Positions 244 through 10,645 of a DNA stretch of 38,394 nt are shown here, in pieces. The notes under the pieces were generated by a model. It did no database searches and had not been told where the DNA came from. It saw nothing but the letters and a program-made list of their open reading frames with translations. A program made the translations under genes and the position numbers. Source of the DNA: Frankiaceae bacterium (GTDB lineage Bacteria > Actinomycetota > Actinomycetes > BP-191). Position 1 is the stretch's first letter. The number at the start of each line of letters is the position of its first letter. Location of the stretch: NCBI GenBank assembly GCA_035556555.1, contig DATMES010000064.1, positions 1 to 38,394 of the forward strand. Reading direction: 5' to 3'.

Positions 244-1635
244 TTGGCTACGCCGGCAACGAGAGAAGACGTCGCGCGCCTGTTCGGCCGCGCCGCGTTC
301 GGGGCGACGAAGAACGACCTCGACGTCTGGACCGGCAAGGACTACGCGCTCGTGGTCGACGCGCTGTTCCCGCCCGCGACCCCGGTGCCGCTGCCGCTGA
401 CCGACGAGAACGCCCGCATCACCGGCGAATCGGAGACGTTCAACGTCACGCCGTCGCAGAAGTGGTGGCTCGAGCGGATGCGCTCCACGCCGTGGCCGCT
501 GCTGGAGCGCATGACGCTGTTCTGGCACTCGCACTTCGCGACGGCGTACACGGGCGCGCCCGACGTCGGCCACGTGATGAAGCAGAACAACACGCTGCGG
601 ACGCACGCCCTCGGCGACTTCCGGAAGATGCTGCACGCGCTGACCGTCGACGGCGCGATGATCTTCTGGCTGTCGGGCTTCCAGAACCGCCGCGGCGCCA
701 TCAACGAGAACCACGCCCGCGAGCTCTTCGAGCTCTTCACGATGGGCACGATGCCGCAGACGTACACCGAGAACGACATCCGTCAGGCGGCGAAGGCGCT
801 GTCCGGCTGGGTCGTCAACGCCAACCGCGTCGGCGTCTTCGACACCAACCGCCACGACCGCAGCGTCAAGACCGTCTTCGGCGCCGACGTCGGCGGCTAC
901 CCGGCGGCCGACCCGCGCGAGGCCACGGAGTACCAGGAGATCTGCAACCTCGCGCTCCTGCAGCACACCACCGCGCGGTACGTCGCCTACAAGATGGTCT
1001 GCTCGTTCGCCTACGTCCCCGACACGACCGACCTGGTCAACGACCCCGACCCGCTGGTCGACGCCGTCGCCAACGCGCTGCGCCCGTCGTGGACCGACCC
1101 TGGCGGCGTCTGGGACATCACCAAGGCGATGAAGACGCTGCTCAACCACAACGCCTTCCGCTACTCGCAGCGCGGCACAGGCAACGTGCTCGTACGCTCG
1201 CCCATCGAGCTGATCGTGCACCTCGGCCGCATCCTCGGCGCGAGCCTCAACAACAACAACGCGCAGACCCACTGGATGCCGCTGTTCGGCCTGCAGCGCA
1301 TGGGGCAGACGCCGTTCCGGCCGCCGAACGTCGCGGGCTGGCCGATGGGCACCGACTGGCTCACCGCACCCGCGGTGCAGGGCCGCTACAACATCGGCGA
1401 CCTCATGGCGAAGGTCTGGGCGAGCCAGGGCCTCACCACCGCCGCCGCCACGATCCTGCCGGCGTCGGGTGACGTCCCGGCGTGGATCTCGTTCATGGGC
1501 CTCGGCAAGCTGACCCCCGAGACGCAGCAGCGGATCAACGCCTACCTGGCCAACCCGGGCACAGGCGACGAGCCCACCAAGCAGCGCAGCATGCTCATCC
1601 TTCTCGCCGCGAGCCCCGACTGGCAGGTCATGTGA
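244..1635 (+). CDS. DUF1800 family protein, copy 1
   Basis: DUF1800 proteins have no established biochemical role and are usually encoded beside DUF1501 proteins, as here. Family hallmarks are visible: RLFGRAAFGAT near the N-terminus, ERMTLFWHSHFAT, NENHARELFELFTMG, YTENDIRQAAKALSGW, and PPNVAGWPMGTDWL near the C-terminus. The protein is 463 aa, with no signal peptide or membrane segment. I chose the TTG at 244 over the in-frame ATG at 226 because GGGAGAGGGG lies at a good spacing before the TTG and the new N-terminus lines up with the paralog at 3397. The stop overlaps the next start (TGATG), so translation is probably coupled. The family call is firm; the function is unknown. Confidence 0.9.
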   Translation: MATPATREDVARLFGRAAFGATKNDLDVWTGKDYALVVDALFPPATPVPLPLTDENARITGESETFNVTPSQKWWLERMRSTPWPLLERMTLFWHSHFATAYTGAPDVGHVMKQNNTLRTHALGDFRKMLHALTVDGAMIFWLSGFQNRRGAINENHARELFELFTMGTMPQTYTENDIRQAAKALSGWVVNANRVGVFDTNRHDRSVKTVFGADVGGYPAADPREATEYQEICNLALLQHTTARYVAYKMVCSFAYVPDTTDLVNDPDPLVDAVANALRPSWTDPGGVWDITKAMKTLLNHNAFRYSQRGTGNVLVRSPIELIVHLGRILGASLNNNNAQTHWMPLFGLQRMGQTPFRPPNVAGWPMGTDWLTAPAVQGRYNIGDLMAKVWASQGLTTAAATILPASGDVPAWISFMGLGKLTPETQQRINAYLANPGTGDEPTKQRSMLILLAASPDWQVM

Positions 1636-2993
1636 TGACGCGAACGATCTCCCGCCGCCAGGTCCTCCGCGGCGCCGCCACCGTCGCGGGCGCGCAGCTG
1701 CTCAGCCCGATCGTGTTCCGCGCGGGTACCGCGTGGGGCGACGCGCAGGTCGACCCCGCGACCGCTAACCGGATGCGGCTCGTCATCATCGACCTCATCG
1801 GCGGCAACGACGGCCTCAACACCGTCGTGCCGATGTCGGGCGCGATCCGCGACGTGTACGAGAAGGTGCGCGTCACCACCGAGCTGCCCGCCGACACGCT
1901 GCTCCCGCTCGGCGCGGTCGACGGCGGCACCGTCGGCCTCAACCCCAACCTGCCGACGATGTACGGCTTCTGGCAGCAGAACCGCATGGCCGTCGTCCAG
2001 GGGTGCGACTACCCGGGGCACGACTACTCGCACTTCGTCTCCGACGACATCTGGCAGACCGGCTTCGTCAACCAGACGACGGGCTCCGGCTGGCTCGGCC
2101 GGCACCTCGATCGGGTCGGCATCGGCGAGGGCGAGCTTCGTGGCGTCGGCATCGGCCTCGACCGGCTGCCGCTCGCGCTGCGCGGCACGCAGGTCCGCGG
2201 CGAGGAGATCAACTCCGTCTACGAGACGCAGTTCACCGACGGCGGCGAGTTCGGCGTCACGCAGCGCAGGCACGCCGAGTTCGCGGCGTTCTCGGCGGCG
2301 CCGTACCCCGTGGATGCCTACTACGGCGACATGTGCCGGCGCGCCCGCGACCTCGCCATCGCCACCACCGGCCTCACCGCCGCGCAGCCCGGCGGCGTCG
2401 CCAACCAGATGCTGACGGCTCGTACGCTGCTCACCGCCAACCTCGGCACCGAGGTCGTCTTCGTCGGCACCGGCGGGTACGACACGCACGACAACCAGCT
2501 CGTCAACCACGCCAACCTGCTGCGCGACCTCGACCGCGGCATCGAGGCGTTCTTCCACGGCACCCGCGACGGCGTGCCGATCCTCAACGGCAGCACGCCG
2601 GTCGGCCCGCTCCCGCAGGCGATCGCCGAGAAGACGCTGGTGATGACGTTCAGCGAGTTCGGGCGCCGCATCGGCGACAACGGCACCGGCACCGACCACG
2701 GCGCGGCGGCGCCCATGTTCCTCATCGGCCCGCCCGCGCCGCCCGCCGGCTCGGGCCGGGTCGTGCTCACCCCCGGACTGCACCGTGACCACCCGGCCAT
2801 GGGCAGCGTCCTCGCCCCCGCGGACAACCTGGAGATGACGACCGACATGCGTTCGATCTACCAATCGGTCCTGACCAACTGGATCAGCGACGCCTCCGGG
2901 CCGAGCCCCGACGAAGGCGACGACGAGTTCCGGATCAGCGGCCCGGGCTACGGCTCGGACGGCTCGCTGACCGGCCTGTTCGGGGTGGCGTGA
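1635..2993 (+). CDS. Tat-exported DUF1501 family protein, copy 1
   Basis: DUF1501 belongs to the alkaline phosphatase/sulfatase-like fold group; the substrate is unknown. The 452-aa protein opens with a twin-arginine signal (SRRQVLRG, Arg7-Arg8), then a hydrophobic stretch, predicting folded export. Family motifs are GGNDGLNT (about residues 56-63), HDYSHFVSDDIWQTG, YDTHDNQ and FSEFGRRIGDNGTGTDHG; the Asp and His residues in the last two are likely metal ligands by family analogy. The ATG at 1635 overlaps the stop of the DUF1800 gene. A longer reading frame starting at 1482 would lose the Tat signal position and overlap the DUF1800 gene widely, so I rejected it. Confidence 0.92.
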   Translation: MTRTISRRQVLRGAATVAGAQLLSPIVFRAGTAWGDAQVDPATANRMRLVIIDLIGGNDGLNTVVPMSGAIRDVYEKVRVTTELPADTLLPLGAVDGGTVGLNPNLPTMYGFWQQNRMAVVQGCDYPGHDYSHFVSDDIWQTGFVNQTTGSGWLGRHLDRVGIGEGELRGVGIGLDRLPLALRGTQVRGEEINSVYETQFTDGGEFGVTQRRHAEFAAFSAAPYPVDAYYGDMCRRARDLAIATTGLTAAQPGGVANQMLTARTLLTANLGTEVVFVGTGGYDTHDNQLVNHANLLRDLDRGIEAFFHGTRDGVPILNGSTPVGPLPQAIAEKTLVMTFSEFGRRIGDNGTGTDHGAAAPMFLIGPPAPPAGSGRVVLTPGLHRDHPAMGSVLAPADNLEMTTDMRSIYQSVLTNWISDASGPSPDEGDDEFRISGPGYGSDGSLTGLFGVA

Positions 2994-3400
2994 TGCGCCG
3001 CCTGGCCGCCGCGGCTGCCTGCGTGGTCGCGGCGCTCCCCTCGTCTCCCGCGTCGGCCGCGCCGACCGTGGAGAACCCGCCGTACGTCGTGGCGCTCAAC
3101 AACGTCTACTACCCCGGCGACATCAGGCTCTTCCAGGGCGGCTCGCTGTCGTTCGTCAACCTCGACGCCACCGGCCACGACATCGTCGCGGCCGAGCGCG
3201 ACGACAACGGCAACCTGCCCTTCTGGTCGGACATCGTCTACGGCCCGCAGCCGGGGTCGCCGCAGACCGCGGAGCCGATGACCGTGGTCAGGGGCGTGTC
3301 GTCGCTGGGCCTCGGCATCCACATGTACACCTGCTCGCTGCACGCAGAGATGCGCGGCACGATCGAGATCCTCGCCGTTCCCGCAGGGGGGTTGTCATGA
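2993..3400 (+). CDS. Secreted cupredoxin-domain (plastocyanin-like) protein
   Basis: This is a 135-aa precursor of a small copper protein, probably an electron carrier or copper-binding partner outside the membrane. It starts with a Sec-type signal (Met-Arg-Arg, an Ala/Val-rich core, then ASAA before the mature part). The type 1 copper ligands are visible: a His in ATGHDIV and the C-terminal CSLHAEM, which supplies Cys, His and Met in the C-x2-H-x2-M spacing. The ATG at 2993 overlaps the previous stop (TGATG); a GTG at 2990 is the alternative. Its stop overlaps the next ATG. Its position between two DUF1800/DUF1501 pairs suggests it works with them. Confidence 0.88.
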   Translation: MRRLAAAAACVVAALPSSPASAAPTVENPPYVVALNNVYYPGDIRLFQGGSLSFVNLDATGHDIVAAERDDNGNLPFWSDIVYGPQPGSPQTAEPMTVVRGVSSLGLGIHMYTCSLHAEMRGTIEILAVPAGGLS

Positions 3401-4770
3401 CGGCGGCCACCGCCAACGACGTCGCCAGGCTGTTCGGCAGGGCCTGCTTCGGCGCGACGAAGACCGACCTCGACCTGTGGGTCGGCAAGGAGTACGCCGA
3501 CGTCGTCAACGCGCTCTTCCCGCCCGCCGGCCTGCCGGTGCCGGGTGCGCTCGTCGACGAGCCGCGCCGCGTCCAGCTCGAGACCGCGACGTCCGACCTG
3601 CTCGCCGGACAGCGGTGGTGGCTGGAGCGGATGCGCACGACGCCGTTCCCGCTGCTCGAGCGCATGACGTGGTTCTGGCACACGCACTTCGCCACGGGCT
3701 ACGCCGGCAACCCCAACGTCGGCGACCTCATGAAGCAGAACCAGACCATCCGCGCCAACGCGCTCGGGAGCTTCCGCACGCTGCTGCACAAGCTCACGGT
3801 CGACGGCGCGATGCTCTACTACCTCTCGGGGTACCAGAACCGCCGCAACGCCGTGAACGAGAACTACGCGCGCGAGCTGTTCGAGCTGTTCACCGCGGGC
3901 GTCATCCCGCAGCGGTTCACCGAGACCGACATCCGCCAGGCCGCCAAGGCGCTGACCGGCTGGGTGGTCAAGGCCGACCGCACGGTGGCGTTCGACACCA
4001 ACCGGCACGACCGCACCGTCAAGACGATCTGCGGCACGACCATCGGCGGCTACCCGGCCAACGACGCGCGCGAGGCGACGGAGTACCAGGAGGTCTGCGA
4101 CATCGCGCTGGGCCTCGACACCACGGCGCACTTCGTGGCGTACAAGATGGTCTGCTCGTTCGCCTACATCCCCGAGACCACGGACCTGTTCGCCGAGCCC
4201 GACGAGCTCGTCGACGCGGTCGCCGCCGCGCTGCGCCCGGCGTGGGACATCACGGCGGCGATGAAGGTGCTGCTCATGCACCCGCGCTTCCGTTCGGGGA
4301 CGCCGGCGCTCGTCCGCCAGCCGGTCGAGGAGGCGGTGCACCTCGCGAAAGTGCTCACCGTCAACATGGACCCGGTCGAGGGCATCCAGAACACCGGCGC
4401 CTCCGCCCACAACCAGCCGATCTTCGCGCTGCGGCGGATGGGGCAGACGCCGTTCCAGCCACCGAACGTCGGCGGCTGGCCGGAAGGCAAGGCCTGGCTC
4501 ACGTCGACCACGACGATCGGCCGCTACAGCCTCGGGCAGTACACGATCAACGCGTACAACACGCAGGGCCGCGTCAACACCAACCCGCTGCCCGCGTCCA
4601 CCGCCGCGCTCGACGTCTGGCGCGCGTACGTCGGGCTCGGCTCGCTCGGCGGCGTCACGCAGCAGCAGGTCCAGAGCTACCTCTCGAACCCCGGCACCAG
4701 CGACGAGCGGACGAAGCAGAACGGCATCCTCTTCCTCCTCGCGGCCTCTCCCGACTGGCAGGTGATGTAG
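3397..4770 (+). CDS. DUF1800 family protein, copy 2
   Basis: This 457-aa paralog matches copy 1 at 244-1635 along its whole length, with the same motifs: RLFGRACFGATKTDLDLW, ERMTWFWHTHFATG, NENYARELFELFTAG, FTETDIRQAAKALTGW, PPNVGGWPEGKAWL and a C-terminal ASPDWQVM shared by both copies. It also lacks a signal peptide. The ATG at 3397 overlaps the cupredoxin stop and follows a G-run that can serve as a ribosome binding site. The most visible differences from copy 1 are in the middle (around the VEGIQNTGASAHN stretch) and in the linker before the last 60 residues. The function is unknown. Confidence 0.9.
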   Translation: MTAATANDVARLFGRACFGATKTDLDLWVGKEYADVVNALFPPAGLPVPGALVDEPRRVQLETATSDLLAGQRWWLERMRTTPFPLLERMTWFWHTHFATGYAGNPNVGDLMKQNQTIRANALGSFRTLLHKLTVDGAMLYYLSGYQNRRNAVNENYARELFELFTAGVIPQRFTETDIRQAAKALTGWVVKADRTVAFDTNRHDRTVKTICGTTIGGYPANDAREATEYQEVCDIALGLDTTAHFVAYKMVCSFAYIPETTDLFAEPDELVDAVAAALRPAWDITAAMKVLLMHPRFRSGTPALVRQPVEEAVHLAKVLTVNMDPVEGIQNTGASAHNQPIFALRRMGQTPFQPPNVGGWPEGKAWLTSTTTIGRYSLGQYTINAYNTQGRVNTNPLPASTAALDVWRAYVGLGSLGGVTQQQVQSYLSNPGTSDERTKQNGILFLLAASPDWQVM

Positions 4771-4772
4771 CC

Positions 4773-6116
4773 GTGTCCCGCACTCCGTCACGTCGCGACG
4801 TCCTCAAGGGCGCCGGCGTCGTAGCCGGGCTCCAGCTGCTCTCGCCGGTCATCTTCCGGGCCGGCGAGGCGTGGGGCGCGACCCAGGTCGACCCGCTCGC
4901 GGCCGACCGCTACCGCCTCATCGTCATCGACATGCACGGCGGCAACGACGGCCTCAACACCGTCGTCCCGATGTCCGGCTCCATCCGCGACGTGTACGAG
5001 AAGGTGCGCGTCACCACCGAGCTGCCGGTCAGCGGCCTCAACCCGCTCGGCGCGGTCAACGGCGGCACCGTCGGCCTGCACGGCGCGCTCAGCACGGTCT
5101 ACGACCTGTGGAACCAGAACCGCGTCGCCATCGTCCAGGGCGCCGACTACCCGTCGCACAACTACTCGCACTTCGTCTCCGACGACATCTGGCAGTCGGG
5201 GCTCCCCGGGCAGCGGCCAGGCAGCGGCTGGCTCGGGCGGCACCTCGACCGCACAGGCATCGACGACGGCGAGCTGCGCGGCATCGGCATCGGCGGGCGG
5301 CTGCCGCTGGCGCTGCGCGGCGAGATCGAGATGGGCGAGCAGGTCAACGCGCTCAGCGAGACGCAGTTCGCCGACGGCGCCGCGACGACCGGCTCGGCGG
5401 GCAAGCGGCACCTCGCGTTCGCCGGCTACGACGCCGACACCCGTGCGGTGCGCGACTTCTACGGCGACTACTGCCGTACGGCGCTCGGCGTCGCCACGTC
5501 CACGACCGGCCTCACGGCCGCGCAGCCCGGCGGCGTCGCCAACGCGATGCTCACCGCGCGGACGCTGCTGACGGCCAACCTCGGCTGCGAGGTCGTGTTC
5601 GTGCTGGCCGGCGGCTACGACACCCACGACAACCAGCTCTCGCGGCACAACACGCTGCTCACCGACCTCGACCGCGGCATCGAGGCGTTCTACTACGGCA
5701 CCAAGGGCGGCGTGCCCGTCACGACCGGCAACCCCGCCGTCCCTGTCGGCCCCGTGGACCCGCACCTCGCGTCCCGGACGCTGATCATGACGTTCAGCGA
5801 GTTCGGCCGGCGGATCGGCGACAACGGCACCGGCACCGACCACGGCGCGGCGGGGCCGATGTTCCTCATCGGGCCTCCGGCACCCGCCGCGGGCTCGGGC
5901 GCGCCGGTGCTCAACCCCGGCCTGCACCGCGACCACCCGGACCTCGGCACGGTGACGCTGCCGAAGGACAACCTCGCCGGCACGACCGACATCCGGTCGG
6001 TCTACCAGTCGGTGCTGACGCGCTGGCTCGCCGACGAGGGCGAGGCGGGCTTCGTCGTGTCCGGCACCGGGATCGACGGCGACGGCACGCTGACCGGGCT
6101 GTTCGGGACCGCCTGA
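4773..6116 (+). CDS. Tat-exported DUF1501 family protein, copy 2
   Basis: This 447-aa paralog of copy 1 has a Tat signal (SRRDVLKG, Arg7-Arg8), GGNDGLNT, HNYSHFVSDDIWQSG, YDTHDNQ and FSEFGRRIGDNGTGTDHG. It begins at a GTG two bases after the stop of the upstream DUF1800 gene. An upstream in-frame extension back to 3477 is a shadow of the DUF1800 gene. The protein ends LTGLFGTA, nearly the same as copy 1 (LTGLFGVA), which supports a dicistron duplication. The metal ligands and hydrolase-like fold are inferred from the family; no substrate can be read from the sequence. Confidence 0.92.
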   Translation: MSRTPSRRDVLKGAGVVAGLQLLSPVIFRAGEAWGATQVDPLAADRYRLIVIDMHGGNDGLNTVVPMSGSIRDVYEKVRVTTELPVSGLNPLGAVNGGTVGLHGALSTVYDLWNQNRVAIVQGADYPSHNYSHFVSDDIWQSGLPGQRPGSGWLGRHLDRTGIDDGELRGIGIGGRLPLALRGEIEMGEQVNALSETQFADGAATTGSAGKRHLAFAGYDADTRAVRDFYGDYCRTALGVATSTTGLTAAQPGGVANAMLTARTLLTANLGCEVVFVLAGGYDTHDNQLSRHNTLLTDLDRGIEAFYYGTKGGVPVTTGNPAVPVGPVDPHLASRTLIMTFSEFGRRIGDNGTGTDHGAAGPMFLIGPPAPAAGSGAPVLNPGLHRDHPDLGTVTLPKDNLAGTTDIRSVYQSVLTRWLADEGEAGFVVSGTGIDGDGTLTGLFGTA

Positions 6117-8026: not shown

Positions 8027-8554
8027 CTACCGCAGCGTGTCCGGGAACACCGCCATGTGGAGCAGGTCGTGCCACTCCCCGCGCTTCCAGAACGCCCGGC
8101 GCTGCAGCCCTTCGTGGGCGAAGCCGGCGCGCTCGTACGTCCGCACCGCCGGGTTGTGCGGGAACACCGTCAGCGACACCCGCGCGAGGTTCATCCGCTC
8201 GAACCCGAACCGGCAGAGCGTGCGTACGGCGTCGATGCCGTACCCCTTCCCGCGGTACGCCGCGTCGCCGACGAACACCGCCAGCTCGGCGTGCCGGTGC
8301 CGCGCCGACACCGCGTGCAGCCCGCACCAGCCGATCGGCGTGCCCGTCGCGCGGTCGAGCAGGATGAACGACGGCTCGGTGTACGACGGCGTCGGCGCGC
8401 TCGCGAGCCGCTGCGCCAGCAGCTCCGGCGGCAGCGGCGGGTAGACGCGGTCCCACCAGCGCATCGTCTCGGGGTCGGACTGCCAGGCGTGCAGGTACGG
8501 CGCGTCCTCCGGCTCGCGGGCGCGCAGCGCGACGAGGTCGCCGGCGTACGTCAT
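8027..8554 (-). CDS. GNAT family N-acetyltransferase (RimJ/RimL-like), fourth in the array
   Basis: This 175-aa protein transfers acetyl from acetyl-CoA to an amine; the acceptor is unknown. RGKGYGIDAVRTLCRF is the acetyl-CoA-binding motif A (R-x-x-G-x-G/A). It is followed by MNLARVSLTVFPHNPAVRTYERAGF, the motif B region of the RimJ/RimL type (given here as a block of two adjacent short motifs). The start is the ATG at 8554, which overlaps the upstream GNAT stop as ATGA and follows GGAGAG. A longer frame to 8614 lies inside the upstream gene. It is the last of four coupled paralogs. Confidence 0.9.
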   Translation of the reverse strand: MTYAGDLVALRAREPEDAPYLHAWQSDPETMRWWDRVYPPLPPELLAQRLASAPTPSYTEPSFILLDRATGTPIGWCGLHAVSARHRHAELAVFVGDAAYRGKGYGIDAVRTLCRFGFERMNLARVSLTVFPHNPAVRTYERAGFAHEGLQRRAFWKRGEWHDLLHMAVFPDTLR

Positions 8555-9051
8555 CGCAGCTCTCCCGCCAGCAGGCCCATGAGGTACTCGTCCCGCCACG
8601 CGCCGTCGATCCACAGCGCGCGCCGGCGGTGCACCTCGCGGTGGAAGCCGAGACCCTCGTAGAGGTGCAGCGCGGCCTCGTGCCCGGCGATGACCTCGAG
8701 CTCGACCTTCGCGAGGTTCATGTCGTCGAACGCGAAGCGGCAGAGCGTCCGTACGACGTCGGTGCCGTAGCCGCGGCCCCGGTACGCGCCGTCGCCGATG
8801 ACGACGAACAGCATCGCGTGGCGGTGCTCCGGGCTGCCGCCGCTGAGCCCCGCCGTGCCGATCGGGGTGCCGGTCTCGGTGTCGTCGACGGTGAGCCGCA
8901 CGTCGCCGTACGCCATCGGCTCCGCCGGCACGTCGTACGTCCCCACGTCGATGAGCCAGCGCGCCGTCTCGGGGTCGGCGTACCAGCGCTTCGCGTGCTC
9001 GACGTCGTCCGGCCGTCTCGCGCGCAGCGTCACCTTCTCGCCGCGGATCAC
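8551..9051 (-). CDS. GNAT family N-acetyltransferase, third in the array
   Basis: This 166-aa protein resembles its neighbours. It opens with an N-terminal strand (VTLRARRPDDVEHAKRW), then has the acetyl-CoA loop RGRGYGTDVVRTLCRF and the motif-B stretch MNLAKVELEVIAGHEAALH. The start is a GTG at 9051 forming a GTGA overlap with the stop of the upstream GNAT; the much longer frame to 9648 has no GNAT content at its N-terminus. The C-terminus LLAGELR closely matches LLEGELR of the first array member, and the junction to the next gene contains GAGCTGCGATGA, as does the junction at 9572. This supports tandem duplication. Confidence 0.88.
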   Translation of the reverse strand: MIRGEKVTLRARRPDDVEHAKRWYADPETARWLIDVGTYDVPAEPMAYGDVRLTVDDTETGTPIGTAGLSGGSPEHRHAMLFVVIGDGAYRGRGYGTDVVRTLCRFAFDDMNLAKVELEVIAGHEAALHLYEGLGFHREVHRRRALWIDGAWRDEYLMGLLAGELR

Positions 9052-9572
9052 GGCGCCGCCTCGTCCGCGAGCAGGCCCATGAGCAGGCAGTCGTGCCAGC
9101 GGCCGTGCTTGAACCACCGGTCGCGCGCGACGCCCTCGCGGACGAAGCCGGCCTTCTCGTACGCCCGGATCGCGGCGGCGTTCTCCGTGAACACCCAGAG
9201 GTGCACGCGGTGCAGGCCGAGCGTGCGGAAGGCGTACCGGCAGATCGTCCTCGTGGCGTCGGTGCCGAAGCCGAGGTTCCACGCCGACCGCTCGCCGATG
9301 ACGATGTCGAGCTCGCCCGCCCGGCTCTCCGGCGTGACGTCGCGCAGGGCGACGTAGCCGATGGTCTCGCCCGTGTCGCGTCGGTCGATGGCGAAGCGCG
9401 GGTTGGCGAACGTGCTGTCCTCCGCGCCCCGCAGCCGCGTCTCGATGGCCGTGAGCGACGGCGGGTAGCGAAAGCCGGTGTAGCGCGTGACGTCGGGGTC
9501 CTGGAACCACCGGTGCTGCGCCGCCGCGTCCCCGGGGTCCATCGGGCGCAGCGTGACCAGGTCGCCGTTCAT
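9048..9572 (-). CDS. GNAT family N-acetyltransferase, second in the array
   Basis: This 174-aa GNAT acyltransferase of the RimJ/RimL type has LVTLRPMDPGDAAAQHRW at the N-terminus. Its acetyl-CoA-binding segment, NLGFGTDATRTICRYAF, is less canonical than in the other three (the usual R-G-x-G-Y is replaced by N-L-G-F-G). It ends with LLADEAAP rather than the GELR seen in the first and third members, so it appears to be the most diverged array member. The ATG at 9572 overlaps the upstream stop (ATGA). The substrate is unknown. Confidence 0.88.
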   Translation of the reverse strand: MNGDLVTLRPMDPGDAAAQHRWFQDPDVTRYTGFRYPPSLTAIETRLRGAEDSTFANPRFAIDRRDTGETIGYVALRDVTPESRAGELDIVIGERSAWNLGFGTDATRTICRYAFRTLGLHRVHLWVFTENAAAIRAYEKAGFVREGVARDRWFKHGRWHDCLLMGLLADEAAP

Positions 9573-10093
9573 CGCAGCTCGCCTTCGAGCAGGGACATGT
9601 AGACGTCGTCGTAGTACCTGCCGTCGCCCCAGTGCGCCTGGCGCGCAACCGCCTCGCGGACGAAGCCGGCGCGCTCGTACGCCTTGATGGCGTACGCGTG
9701 GTGGGCGAAGACGAGCAGCTCGATGCGGTGCAGGTTCATCTCCTCGAACCCGAACCGGCACAGCGTGCGGACGGTGTCGGTGCCGTACCCCTTGCCCCAC
9801 TGGGTCCTGTCGACGAGCGCGACGCCGAGCTCCGCGGAGCGGTTCTCCGGGGCGTTGGTGCCGTACAGCCCGCAGGTCCCGAGCAGGGTGCCGTCGAGGG
9901 TCTCGACGGCGAAGTGCGCGCCGGCGTACGACGGCACAGCGCCGCGCTCCACCCACTCGCGCTCGGTGCGCCGCGACACCGGATAGCGGACGCCGAGACC
10001 GGCCGTGGCCTCGGTGTCGTTGAACCACTCGTAGAACGACTCCGCGTCCGCCGGCTCCGGCGCGCGGAGCCGGACGAGCGCTCCTGGGACCAT
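9569..10093 (-). CDS. GNAT family N-acetyltransferase, first in the array
   Basis: This 174-aa GNAT protein leads the four-gene array. LVRLRAPEPADAESFYEW starts the fold, WGKGYGTDTVRTLCRFGF is the acetyl-CoA loop, and MNLHRIELLVFAHHAYAI is motif B. The ATG at 10093 was chosen because TAGTCT lies exactly 7 bases upstream, which fits leaderless initiation, and because the frame beyond it runs into the divergent gene. The four paralogs differ mainly in the loop after the first strand, where acceptor specificity usually resides. Confidence 0.9.
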   Translation of the reverse strand: MVPGALVRLRAPEPADAESFYEWFNDTEATAGLGVRYPVSRRTEREWVERGAVPSYAGAHFAVETLDGTLLGTCGLYGTNAPENRSAELGVALVDRTQWGKGYGTDTVRTLCRFGFEEMNLHRIELLVFAHHAYAIKAYERAGFVREAVARQAHWGDGRYYDDVYMSLLEGELR

Positions 10094-10112: not shown

Positions 10113-10445
10113 GTGGAGATCGAATGGGCGACCGTGCCGGACGTGGCCGAGGCACTCGGCGTCGAGGTGACCAAGGTGCGGCAGTTCCTCCGTGAGGGGA
10201 AGCTGCTGGCCGTGCGCGAGGGGGCGGACAAGCCGTTGCGCATCCCTGCGGCGTTCGTGCAGGACGGTGTCGTCGTCAAGCACCTGCCGGGCGTCATCAC
10301 GCTGCTGCGCGACGCGCGGTTCGGCGACGACGAGGCGGTGCGCTGGCTCTTCGAGGACGACGACCTGCCCGGGTCTCCGATCGAGGCGCTGCGCGCGAAC
10401 CGCGGCACCGAGGTCAAGCGCCGGGCGCAGGCGCTGGGCTTCTGA
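10113..10445 (+). CDS. Rv2175c-like DNA-binding protein
   Basis: This 110-aa protein looks like the Rv2175c family, small actinobacterial DNA-binding proteins; in M. tuberculosis Rv2175c is a substrate of the kinase PknL. The N-terminal winged-helix-like part reads TVPDVAEALGVEVTKVRQFL and is followed by the family's C-terminal helical domain (VKHLPGVITLLRDARF, then EDDDLPGSPIEALR). I chose the GTG at 10113; an in-frame ATG at 10092 would overlap the divergent GNAT start. Its stop overlaps the start of thiS (TGATG). No PknL-like kinase is in the window. Control of the thiamine genes behind it is possible but not shown. Confidence 0.85.
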   Translation: MEIEWATVPDVAEALGVEVTKVRQFLREGKLLAVREGADKPLRIPAAFVQDGVVVKHLPGVITLLRDARFGDDEAVRWLFEDDDLPGSPIEALRANRGTEVKRRAQALGF

Positions 10446-10645
10446 TGGACGTGCGGGTCAACGGCTCCGTCATGTCGCTGGCAGACGGGACGACGCTGCC
10501 TGCTCTGCTGGCTTCGCTGGGGCTCGGCACGGGCTGGGTCGTCGTGGAGCGCAACGGCGAGGCGCTGCTGCGGTCGGAGACCGAGCGCACCGTCCTCGCC
10601 GACGGCGACGTGCTGGAGATCGTGCGCGCGGTGGCCGGTGGCTGA
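10445..10645 (+). CDS. thiS: Sulfur carrier protein ThiS
   Basis: This is a 66-aa ubiquitin-like protein. It begins [15 protein letters not shown] and ends RAVAGG, the C-terminal Gly-Gly that is adenylated and converted to a thiocarboxylate to supply sulfur for the thiazole ring of thiamine. The length is typical. The ATG overlaps the stop of the Rv2175c-like gene and the 3' end overlaps thiE by 8 bases. ThiG and ThiF/MoeB-type partners are not in the window. Confidence 0.93.

Follow-up and report, generated by a model that had tools for sequence, protein, structure and literature searches.

Two arrangements described in other bacteria resemble the locus studied here. In Pectobacterium, Dickeya and Agrobacterium vitis, an operon of adjoining DUF1501 (PF07394) and DUF1800 (PF08811) genes lies beside chitin synthase genes; its DUF1501 protein bears a motif for twin-arginine translocation (Tat), and for A. 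vitis pairs in tandem have been described (PMC5122149). In planctomycetes and the wider Planctomycetes-Verrucomicrobia-Chlamydiae (PVC) group, DUF1501 clusters have been mentioned (PMC4452313), and the neighborhoods of PSCyt proteins, some of which bear carbohydrate-binding modules, have been described (PMC5615132). In those clusters, DUF1501 adjoins a partner of the PSCyt1-PSCyt2-PSD1 (DUF1549/DUF1553) type with a heme (CxxCH) module inside the same protein, additional domains, F5/8 type C among them, are found, and many copies occur per genome. We analyzed a locus at positions 244 to 6,116 of a Frankiaceae contig in which a gene for a secreted cupredoxin-like protein lies between two DUF1800-DUF1501 pairs. 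The window, meaning the whole stretch of DNA that was analyzed, is one complete contig (C64, 38,394 bp) of a 4.0 Mb actinobacterial draft genome, and sequence upstream of base 1 is outside its view. Like the chitin synthase-linked operon, the locus has the two families adjoining and a Tat motif on DUF1501, but it has no chitin synthase or epimerase gene, contains an added cupredoxin and belongs to another phylum. Like the planctomycete clusters, it combines DUF1501, a partner that is probably a remote homolog of theirs over much of its length, and a redox module, which here is a separate copper protein instead of a heme module within the partner. Our reading, loosely stated, is that these loci may encode a Tat-exported metalloenzyme complex that relies for its redox step on copper here and on heme in planctomycetes, and we give this model as a whole a probability of roughly 45%.

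The five genes lie on the plus strand, with junctions TGATG, GTGATG, CATGA and TAG-CC-GTG that correspond to overlaps of 1 to 4 bases or a gap of 2 bases. The first DUF1800 gene (244..1635) encodes 463 aa from a TTG at 244, with an alternative ATG start at 226, and matches PF08811 with an E-value of 3.6e-82; the protein is without a signal peptide, its conserved domain starting about 8 residues in according to an N-terminus survey. The first DUF1501 gene (1635..2993) encodes 452 aa with the Tat signal MTRTISRRQVLRGAATVAG (PF07394, E = 1.1e-19). The cupredoxin-like protein (2990..3400) has a Sec-type leader and counts 136 aa from a GTG at 2990, the other candidate start being an ATG at 2993. 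The second DUF1800 protein (3397..4770; 457 aa; PF08811, E = 2.1e-83) also has no signal peptide, and the second DUF1501 protein (4773..6116; 447 aa; PF07394, E = 3.8e-19) has the Tat signal VSRTPSRRDVLKGAGVVAG. This second DUF1501 copy gave a TAT_signal Pfam match of 6.5e-4, under Pfam's cut-off, and the first copy gave none. In both pairs the two families scored above the gathering cut-offs and were neighbors with DUF1800 first. The five coupled genes of the original prediction are thus all in place, overlapping or nearly so. No sigma-70-like promoter was found in a consensus scan, which is weakly informative in such a genome.

Cupredoxins recurred beside the pair in other Actinomycetota. 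We sampled 40 DUF1800-DUF1501 loci from 396 Actinomycetota genomes, of which 38 (~10%) were positive for a DUF1800 query; genes were called by codon usage and flanking proteins were clustered blind to annotation. The clusters that recurred directly beside the pair (±1) and in its orientation were cupredoxins. Across the 40 loci, all outside the genus of the window, a cupredoxin occupied 11 of 77 adjacent slots, always on the same strand, versus 1 of 220 slots at positions 2-4 (Fisher p = 1.9e-6, relatedness uncorrected). The ten cupredoxin-bearing loci fell into four genome families (f45, 4/4 loci; f58, 3/3; f66, 2/5; f40, 1/1), and whether the cupredoxin preceded or followed the pair depended on the lineage. 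The cupredoxins sort into two related families. Family 1 comprises the proteins of the window genus, of one metagenome-assembled genome labelled Actinomycetota 0813_bin2 and of genome G393. Family 2 was found at nine loci and has the motif GEDPHD ... C-x4-H-x4-GM; a search of the whole sample with it returned the nine seeds on top and then one new sequence (2.7e-32), encoded directly after a DUF1501 gene. In G393 (L108 5002-10860), the pair is flanked on both sides by cupredoxin-bearing proteins of ~500 aa, of which the upstream one is without the axial Met.

Such a cupredoxin could be a mere neighbor, that is an abundant secreted protein co-expressed with the pair and working with other enzymes. 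Same-family cupredoxins, meaning family 1, occur in 166 of the 396 genomes (E ≤ 1e-6), also beside oxidases unrelated to DUF1501, and most pairs are without one. However, cupredoxins were concentrated at ±1 with none at ±2 and ±3, on either side by lineage, and family 2 lay beside DUF1501 in all ten strong matches, nine of which were the seeds. We therefore regard this explanation as unlikely and the association with the DUF1800-DUF1501 pair as almost certainly real. The link is limited to some lineages, and the cupredoxin can serve other enzymes.

The cupredoxin of the window gave by itself a weak Pfam match (Copper-bind, E = 0.17) and, modeled by AlphaFold2 from its single sequence with no alignment, reached a predicted local distance difference test (pLDDT) value of 33. 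It aligns with paralogs and orthologs at the same position that pass the Pfam cut-offs for Cupredoxin_1 or Copper-bind. In this alignment, the type 1 copper ligands His, Cys, His and Met attributed to it in the original prediction are all in register with the clear cupredoxin homologs: His63 (3176-3178), Cys115 (3332-3334), His118 (3341-3343) and Met121 (3350-3352), numbered in the 136-aa protein and forming a C-x2-H-x2-M loop, occupy conserved columns. Loss of the ligands in most homologs, named beforehand as grounds for rejection, was not seen. In family 1 the H, C and H are invariant and the M is present in 9 of 10 sequences; in family 2 all four are invariant (9/9). A His with a C-x2-H-x2-M loop, as in amicyanin, is the ligand set of an electron-transfer type 1 site, which binds copper tightly, and amicyanin serves methylamine dehydrogenase. 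The window protein resembles amicyanin- and plastocyanin-type cupredoxins (PF13473, PF00127) in its leader peptide, its His and Cys-x2-His-x2-Met loop and the position of its gene beside that of an exported enzyme. It differs in that its relatives score under the amicyanin and plastocyanin cut-offs and that the enzyme partner is not a known dehydrogenase. The cupredoxin fold could also have a binding or structural function within the pair at the cell surface that involves no redox chemistry, given that one copy in this genome has its cupredoxin domain fused to an NHL propeller, which could bind a ligand or a surface, and that one family-1 member is without the Met. This is quite improbable, since the Cys and both His, needless for a structural role, are invariant in 19/19 sequences of the two families.

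A sequence profile search found no PDB relative of DUF1501. Its profile, compared by hhalign, scored 41.5 with sulfatase and 32.1 with phosphodiesterase versus 24.0 or less for 29 control families, and its invariant FDTH and SEFGR motifs aligned to metal-site motifs of the alkaline phosphatase (AP)/sulfatase superfamily. By these profile similarities, DUF1501 appears to be a divergent protein of that superfamily. In alignments, the first window copy retains GGNDG, YSHF, GGYDTH, SEFGRR and GTDHG, all of them metal-ligand-like. With a metal site of this kind next door, the cupredoxin might be a copper chaperone or metallation factor that supplies, keeps or guards against copper for DUF1501 and is not an electron carrier, and the overlap of its gene with those of the pair would suit such a role. 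Yet the metals of AP-superfamily sites are Zn, Mg or Ca rather than copper, the cupredoxin has the tightly binding ligand set of electron-transfer sites, and metal is normally inserted inside the cell for proteins that fold before Tat export. Moreover, the planctomycete counterpart has heme motifs, which are unable to donate metal. We hold a chaperone role to be improbable. For the cupredoxin as an electron carrier of the pair, we put the odds at about even.

Since DUF1501 partners both DUF1800 and PSCyt2-PSD1, we compared the profiles of these two partners. The hhalign score was 51.2 with a set of 15 PSCyt2-PSD1 proteins from one genome, 53.2 with 7 proteins from other genomes and 54.0, over 205 aligned columns, with 11 short proteins. 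The corresponding P values ranged from 3e-5 to 9e-6 over the three sets; controls reached at most 21.5-28.1 and reversed profiles 15-17. A second, weaker alignment joined the DUF1800 N-terminus (LLRRxxFGxTPxE) to the PSCyt2 N-terminus (LxRRxxxDLTGLPPTPEE) in the same chain order. DUF1800 and PSCyt2-PSD1 are therefore likely to be distantly related on profile evidence, a kinship for which no prior statement was found in the literature searched. No CxxCH heme motif is present in either window copy, and DUF1800 would count as a relative of the PSCyt families and not as a member. The second copy (3397-4770) gave a good AlphaFold2 model, with a pLDDT of 88 and a predicted template modeling score (pTM) of 0.90. 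A fold search with this model retrieved no relative from the PDB (best E = 0.96, TM ~0.1) and, among viral models, only another DUF1800; a PDB sequence profile search with DUF1800 also found no relative. The pairing of DUF1501 with PSCyt proteins was evident in one planctomycete genome with 44 DUF1501 and 39 PSCyt2 matches, often on shared contigs. In 14/14 planctomycete stretches read, a DUF1501 gene adjoins a PSCyt gene; the PSCyt2-PSD1 proteins have one or two CxxCH motifs and leader-like N-termini. Three short planctomycete proteins of the PSCyt2-PSD1 type (L237, L244, L245) are without CxxCH and could be intermediates between PSCyt proteins and DUF1800.

The export signals of the pair followed a regular pattern. 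Both DUF1501 copies of the window carry the Tat signal noted in the original prediction, and a motif rule detected one on 71 of the 75 surveyed DUF1501 genes with an N-terminus, three of the remaining four being near-matches by eye. By the same rule, 14 of 76 DUF1800 proteins had a Tat signal of their own and ~62 had none, their domain mostly starting near the first residue; a Sec-type leader was found on none (0/76), and five further DUF1800 flags were discounted as read-through outside the gene. The cupredoxins bear Sec-type leaders, as judged by eye. A Tat signal on DUF1501 combined with a DUF1800 that has no signal or its own Tat signal, and never a Sec leader, suggests export as a complex, and we favor, with some reserve, co-export of DUF1800 with DUF1501. 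As read by the motif rule only, the pattern fits a Tat complex with a hitchhiking subunit, as in E. coli PaoABC (PMC4273604) or in FAD glucose dehydrogenase with its hitchhiker protein (PMC6719666), where one subunit has the signal and the partner encoded by the coupled gene has none. No sequence relation to these systems is claimed, and for DUF1800-DUF1501 co-export is a prediction.

DUF1800 could instead stay inside the cell, serving DUF1501 in the cytoplasm as a Tat chaperone or as a partner in folding, much as redox-enzyme maturation proteins do. Its missing signal in ~62 of 76 loci beside a Tat-bearing DUF1501, and the strict, coupled order of DUF1800 then DUF1501, agree with this possibility. 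On the other hand, DUF1800 has its own Tat signal, and hence is exported, in 14 loci, and its 450 conserved residues are large for a chaperone. CxxCH motifs and leader-like N-termini occur in its remote relatives PSCyt2-PSD1, and heme is attached to such motifs outside the cytoplasm. A role confined to the cytoplasm thus appears rather unlikely. The original prediction had also raised the possibility of an export system; DUF1800, DUF1501 and the cupredoxin look instead like exported cargo, not like an exporting machine.

A further copy of the pair in the same genome lies in an informative setting. On contig C63 (L026 1-10247 = G000 C63 18000-28246), the genes for a cupredoxin-NHL protein, DUF1800 and DUF1501, in this order, are found within a futalosine-type menaquinone cluster, flanked at one end by VitK2_biosynth/MqnA and at the other by MqnC, an amidohydrolase and MenG; beyond these come a geranylgeranyl reductase family gene, nuoA and nuoB. 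The order from mqnA to the amidohydrolase is kept in all three genus members (L026 and its orthologs L061 and L063). Taken with the type 1 copper domain encoded first, this placement among menaquinone and nuoA-nuoB genes suggests a link with the respiratory chain.

In total, the genome has six DUF1800 genes and a minimum of six DUF1501 genes, distributed over four places (the window, C35, C63 and C3). Contig C35 has the order cupredoxin, DUF1800, DUF1501, DUF1800, DUF1501, and C3 has DUF1800 followed by a DUF1501 broken off by the contig end. Contig C18 opens with another DUF1501 tail, different from that of C3; the two were considered as halves of one gene, which was ruled out since their overlapping part differs in sequence. 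In each contig the end falls inside its DUF1501 gene, close to the conserved SEFGR region (L028 1-2519 and L029 1-346, respectively). The copy number is a minimum because such assembly breaks hide further pairs. Next to the C3 pair (L028 2631-5083) are an MreB-like gene and a gene with helix-turn-helix and cupin domains. Two sister species have two and three pairs, respectively. A cupredoxin is present at the window, C35 and C63 loci and, among the five loci of the sister species, at four. In two sister genomes an apparent fusion of DUF1501 with the cupredoxin was ruled out, the cupredoxin being a separate gene with its own leader.

The DUF1800 copies of the window are 61.7% identical and the DUF1501 copies 68% identical, with no stop, frameshift or motif loss, and both copies of each retain every residue that is invariant across 14-15 homologs from several phyla. 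They are therefore the close paralogs with all motifs kept that had been described. That both are probably under selection holds insofar as it rests on the retained motifs, because the dN/dS of 0.6-0.7 (NG86) is a poor estimate at such GC content at third codon positions (GC3) and cannot serve as support. The DUF1800 and DUF1501 trees concur on the main groups, which are the window pairs with sister-species locus L064, C35 and C3 with L065, and C63 with two orthologs. L064 is a single unit in the order DUF1800, DUF1501, cupredoxin. Since both window pairs group with this unit in both trees, a cupredoxin sandwiched between two pairs is a product of duplication, and a conserved sandwich design was ruled out. 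The position between two copies, to which meaning had been attached, was seen in this genome only; elsewhere the cupredoxin comes before or after the pair or pairs. The simplest history would be that a DUF1800-DUF1501-cupredoxin unit acquired a second pair behind the cupredoxin in a lineage-specific event.

From the computed gene order, cupredoxin recurrence, ligands, Tat/no-signal pattern, profile similarities and menaquinone placement, we infer complex formation, co-export, electron transfer, a redox role and a substrate class, as follows. The locus would encode a Tat-exported metalloenzyme of two proteins, present as two paralogous copies, and a secreted type 1 copper protein. DUF1501 would fold with the signal-less DUF1800 in the cytoplasm and carry it out via the Tat channel. 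Outside the membrane, the DUF1800-DUF1501 complex would act on a substrate, possibly of carbohydrate type. The cupredoxin would leave separately via Sec, take up copper outside and connect the complex with the respiratory chain as an electron carrier, in the role of the planctomycete heme domains. The hints to a carbohydrate substrate are indirect: the sulfatase-like kinship of DUF1501, the chitin synthase operons elsewhere (PMC5122149) and the carbohydrate-binding modules on some PSCyt proteins (PMC5615132).

Several observations weigh against this model. Thirty of the 40 Actinomycetota loci have no cupredoxin beside the pair, with 0/27 in twelve further families, and none was found at 12 loci of the same class outside the genus or at 10 loci of other phyla. 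Within the genus, it is absent at C41 of genome G002 and at C3, the latter broken off by the contig end. The next matches of family 1 adjoin multicopper-oxidase-like and other genes without DUF1501, and for this reason family 1 is not specific to the pair. Enzymes of the AP superfamily typically catalyze hydrolysis rather than redox reactions, and in DUF1800 no Cys is invariant and no cofactor site is known. Its likeness to PSCyt2-PSD1 is remote, with an hhalign probability of 67-83% and a PSCyt side without a structure. Finally, the signal calls are those of a simple motif rule reading back to the upstream stop codon rather than of a trained predictor. As most pairs in the phylum and all those sampled in other phyla are without a cupredoxin, copper is not required everywhere for the core activity of the pair. 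Hence, a metal-dependent, redox-linked extracellular reaction, as suggested in the original prediction, is a fair reading of the recurrent cupredoxin, the kept ligands and the near-universal Tat signal of DUF1501, but not one in which copper is needed everywhere. A cytochrome c did not take its place beside the cupredoxin-less actinobacterial pairs, where CxxCH was sought in genes at ±1 and ±2; the matches were ribosomal protein L31-like or unrelated. Four cupredoxin-less pairs of one genome family (L121, L132, L136, L137) have a fixed place between ribosomal protein L31-like and peptide-release-factor-like genes, and their DUF1501 genes encode ~800 aa.

Elsewhere in the window, just downstream of the locus, four successive overlapping genes for GNAT acetyltransferases (8027-10093, minus strand; Acetyltransf_3, E = 1e-15 to 1e-28) form a tandem family expansion. 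An Rv2175c-like DNA-binding gene with thiS directly after it follows at 10113-10642. A MraZ gene lies at the far contig end (37913-38344), and the division cluster usually found after MraZ is lost to the contig end.

DUF1501 and DUF1800 are widespread families without a known activity, found through the DUF1800 query in ~10% of 396 Actinomycetota genomes and with some 40 DUF1501 genes in one planctomycete. Tentatively, and with less confidence than in the model for this locus, DUF1501 might represent one large, unrecognized family of metalloenzymes that are exported by Tat and coupled to redox reactions. Their usual partner would belong to one superfamily (DUF1800 / DUF1549-DUF1553), and their electron carrier would be exchangeable: planctomycetes would use covalently bound heme, some Actinomycetota a type 1 copper protein encoded separately, and other groups an unlinked carrier or none at all. 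The copper partner, the Tat route and the PSCyt link make it a testable idea that the pair is an extracellular redox-coupled enzyme. The planctomycete PSCyt/PSD families, whose function is unassigned, would also gain in DUF1800 a small heme-free homolog, which should be easier to purify.

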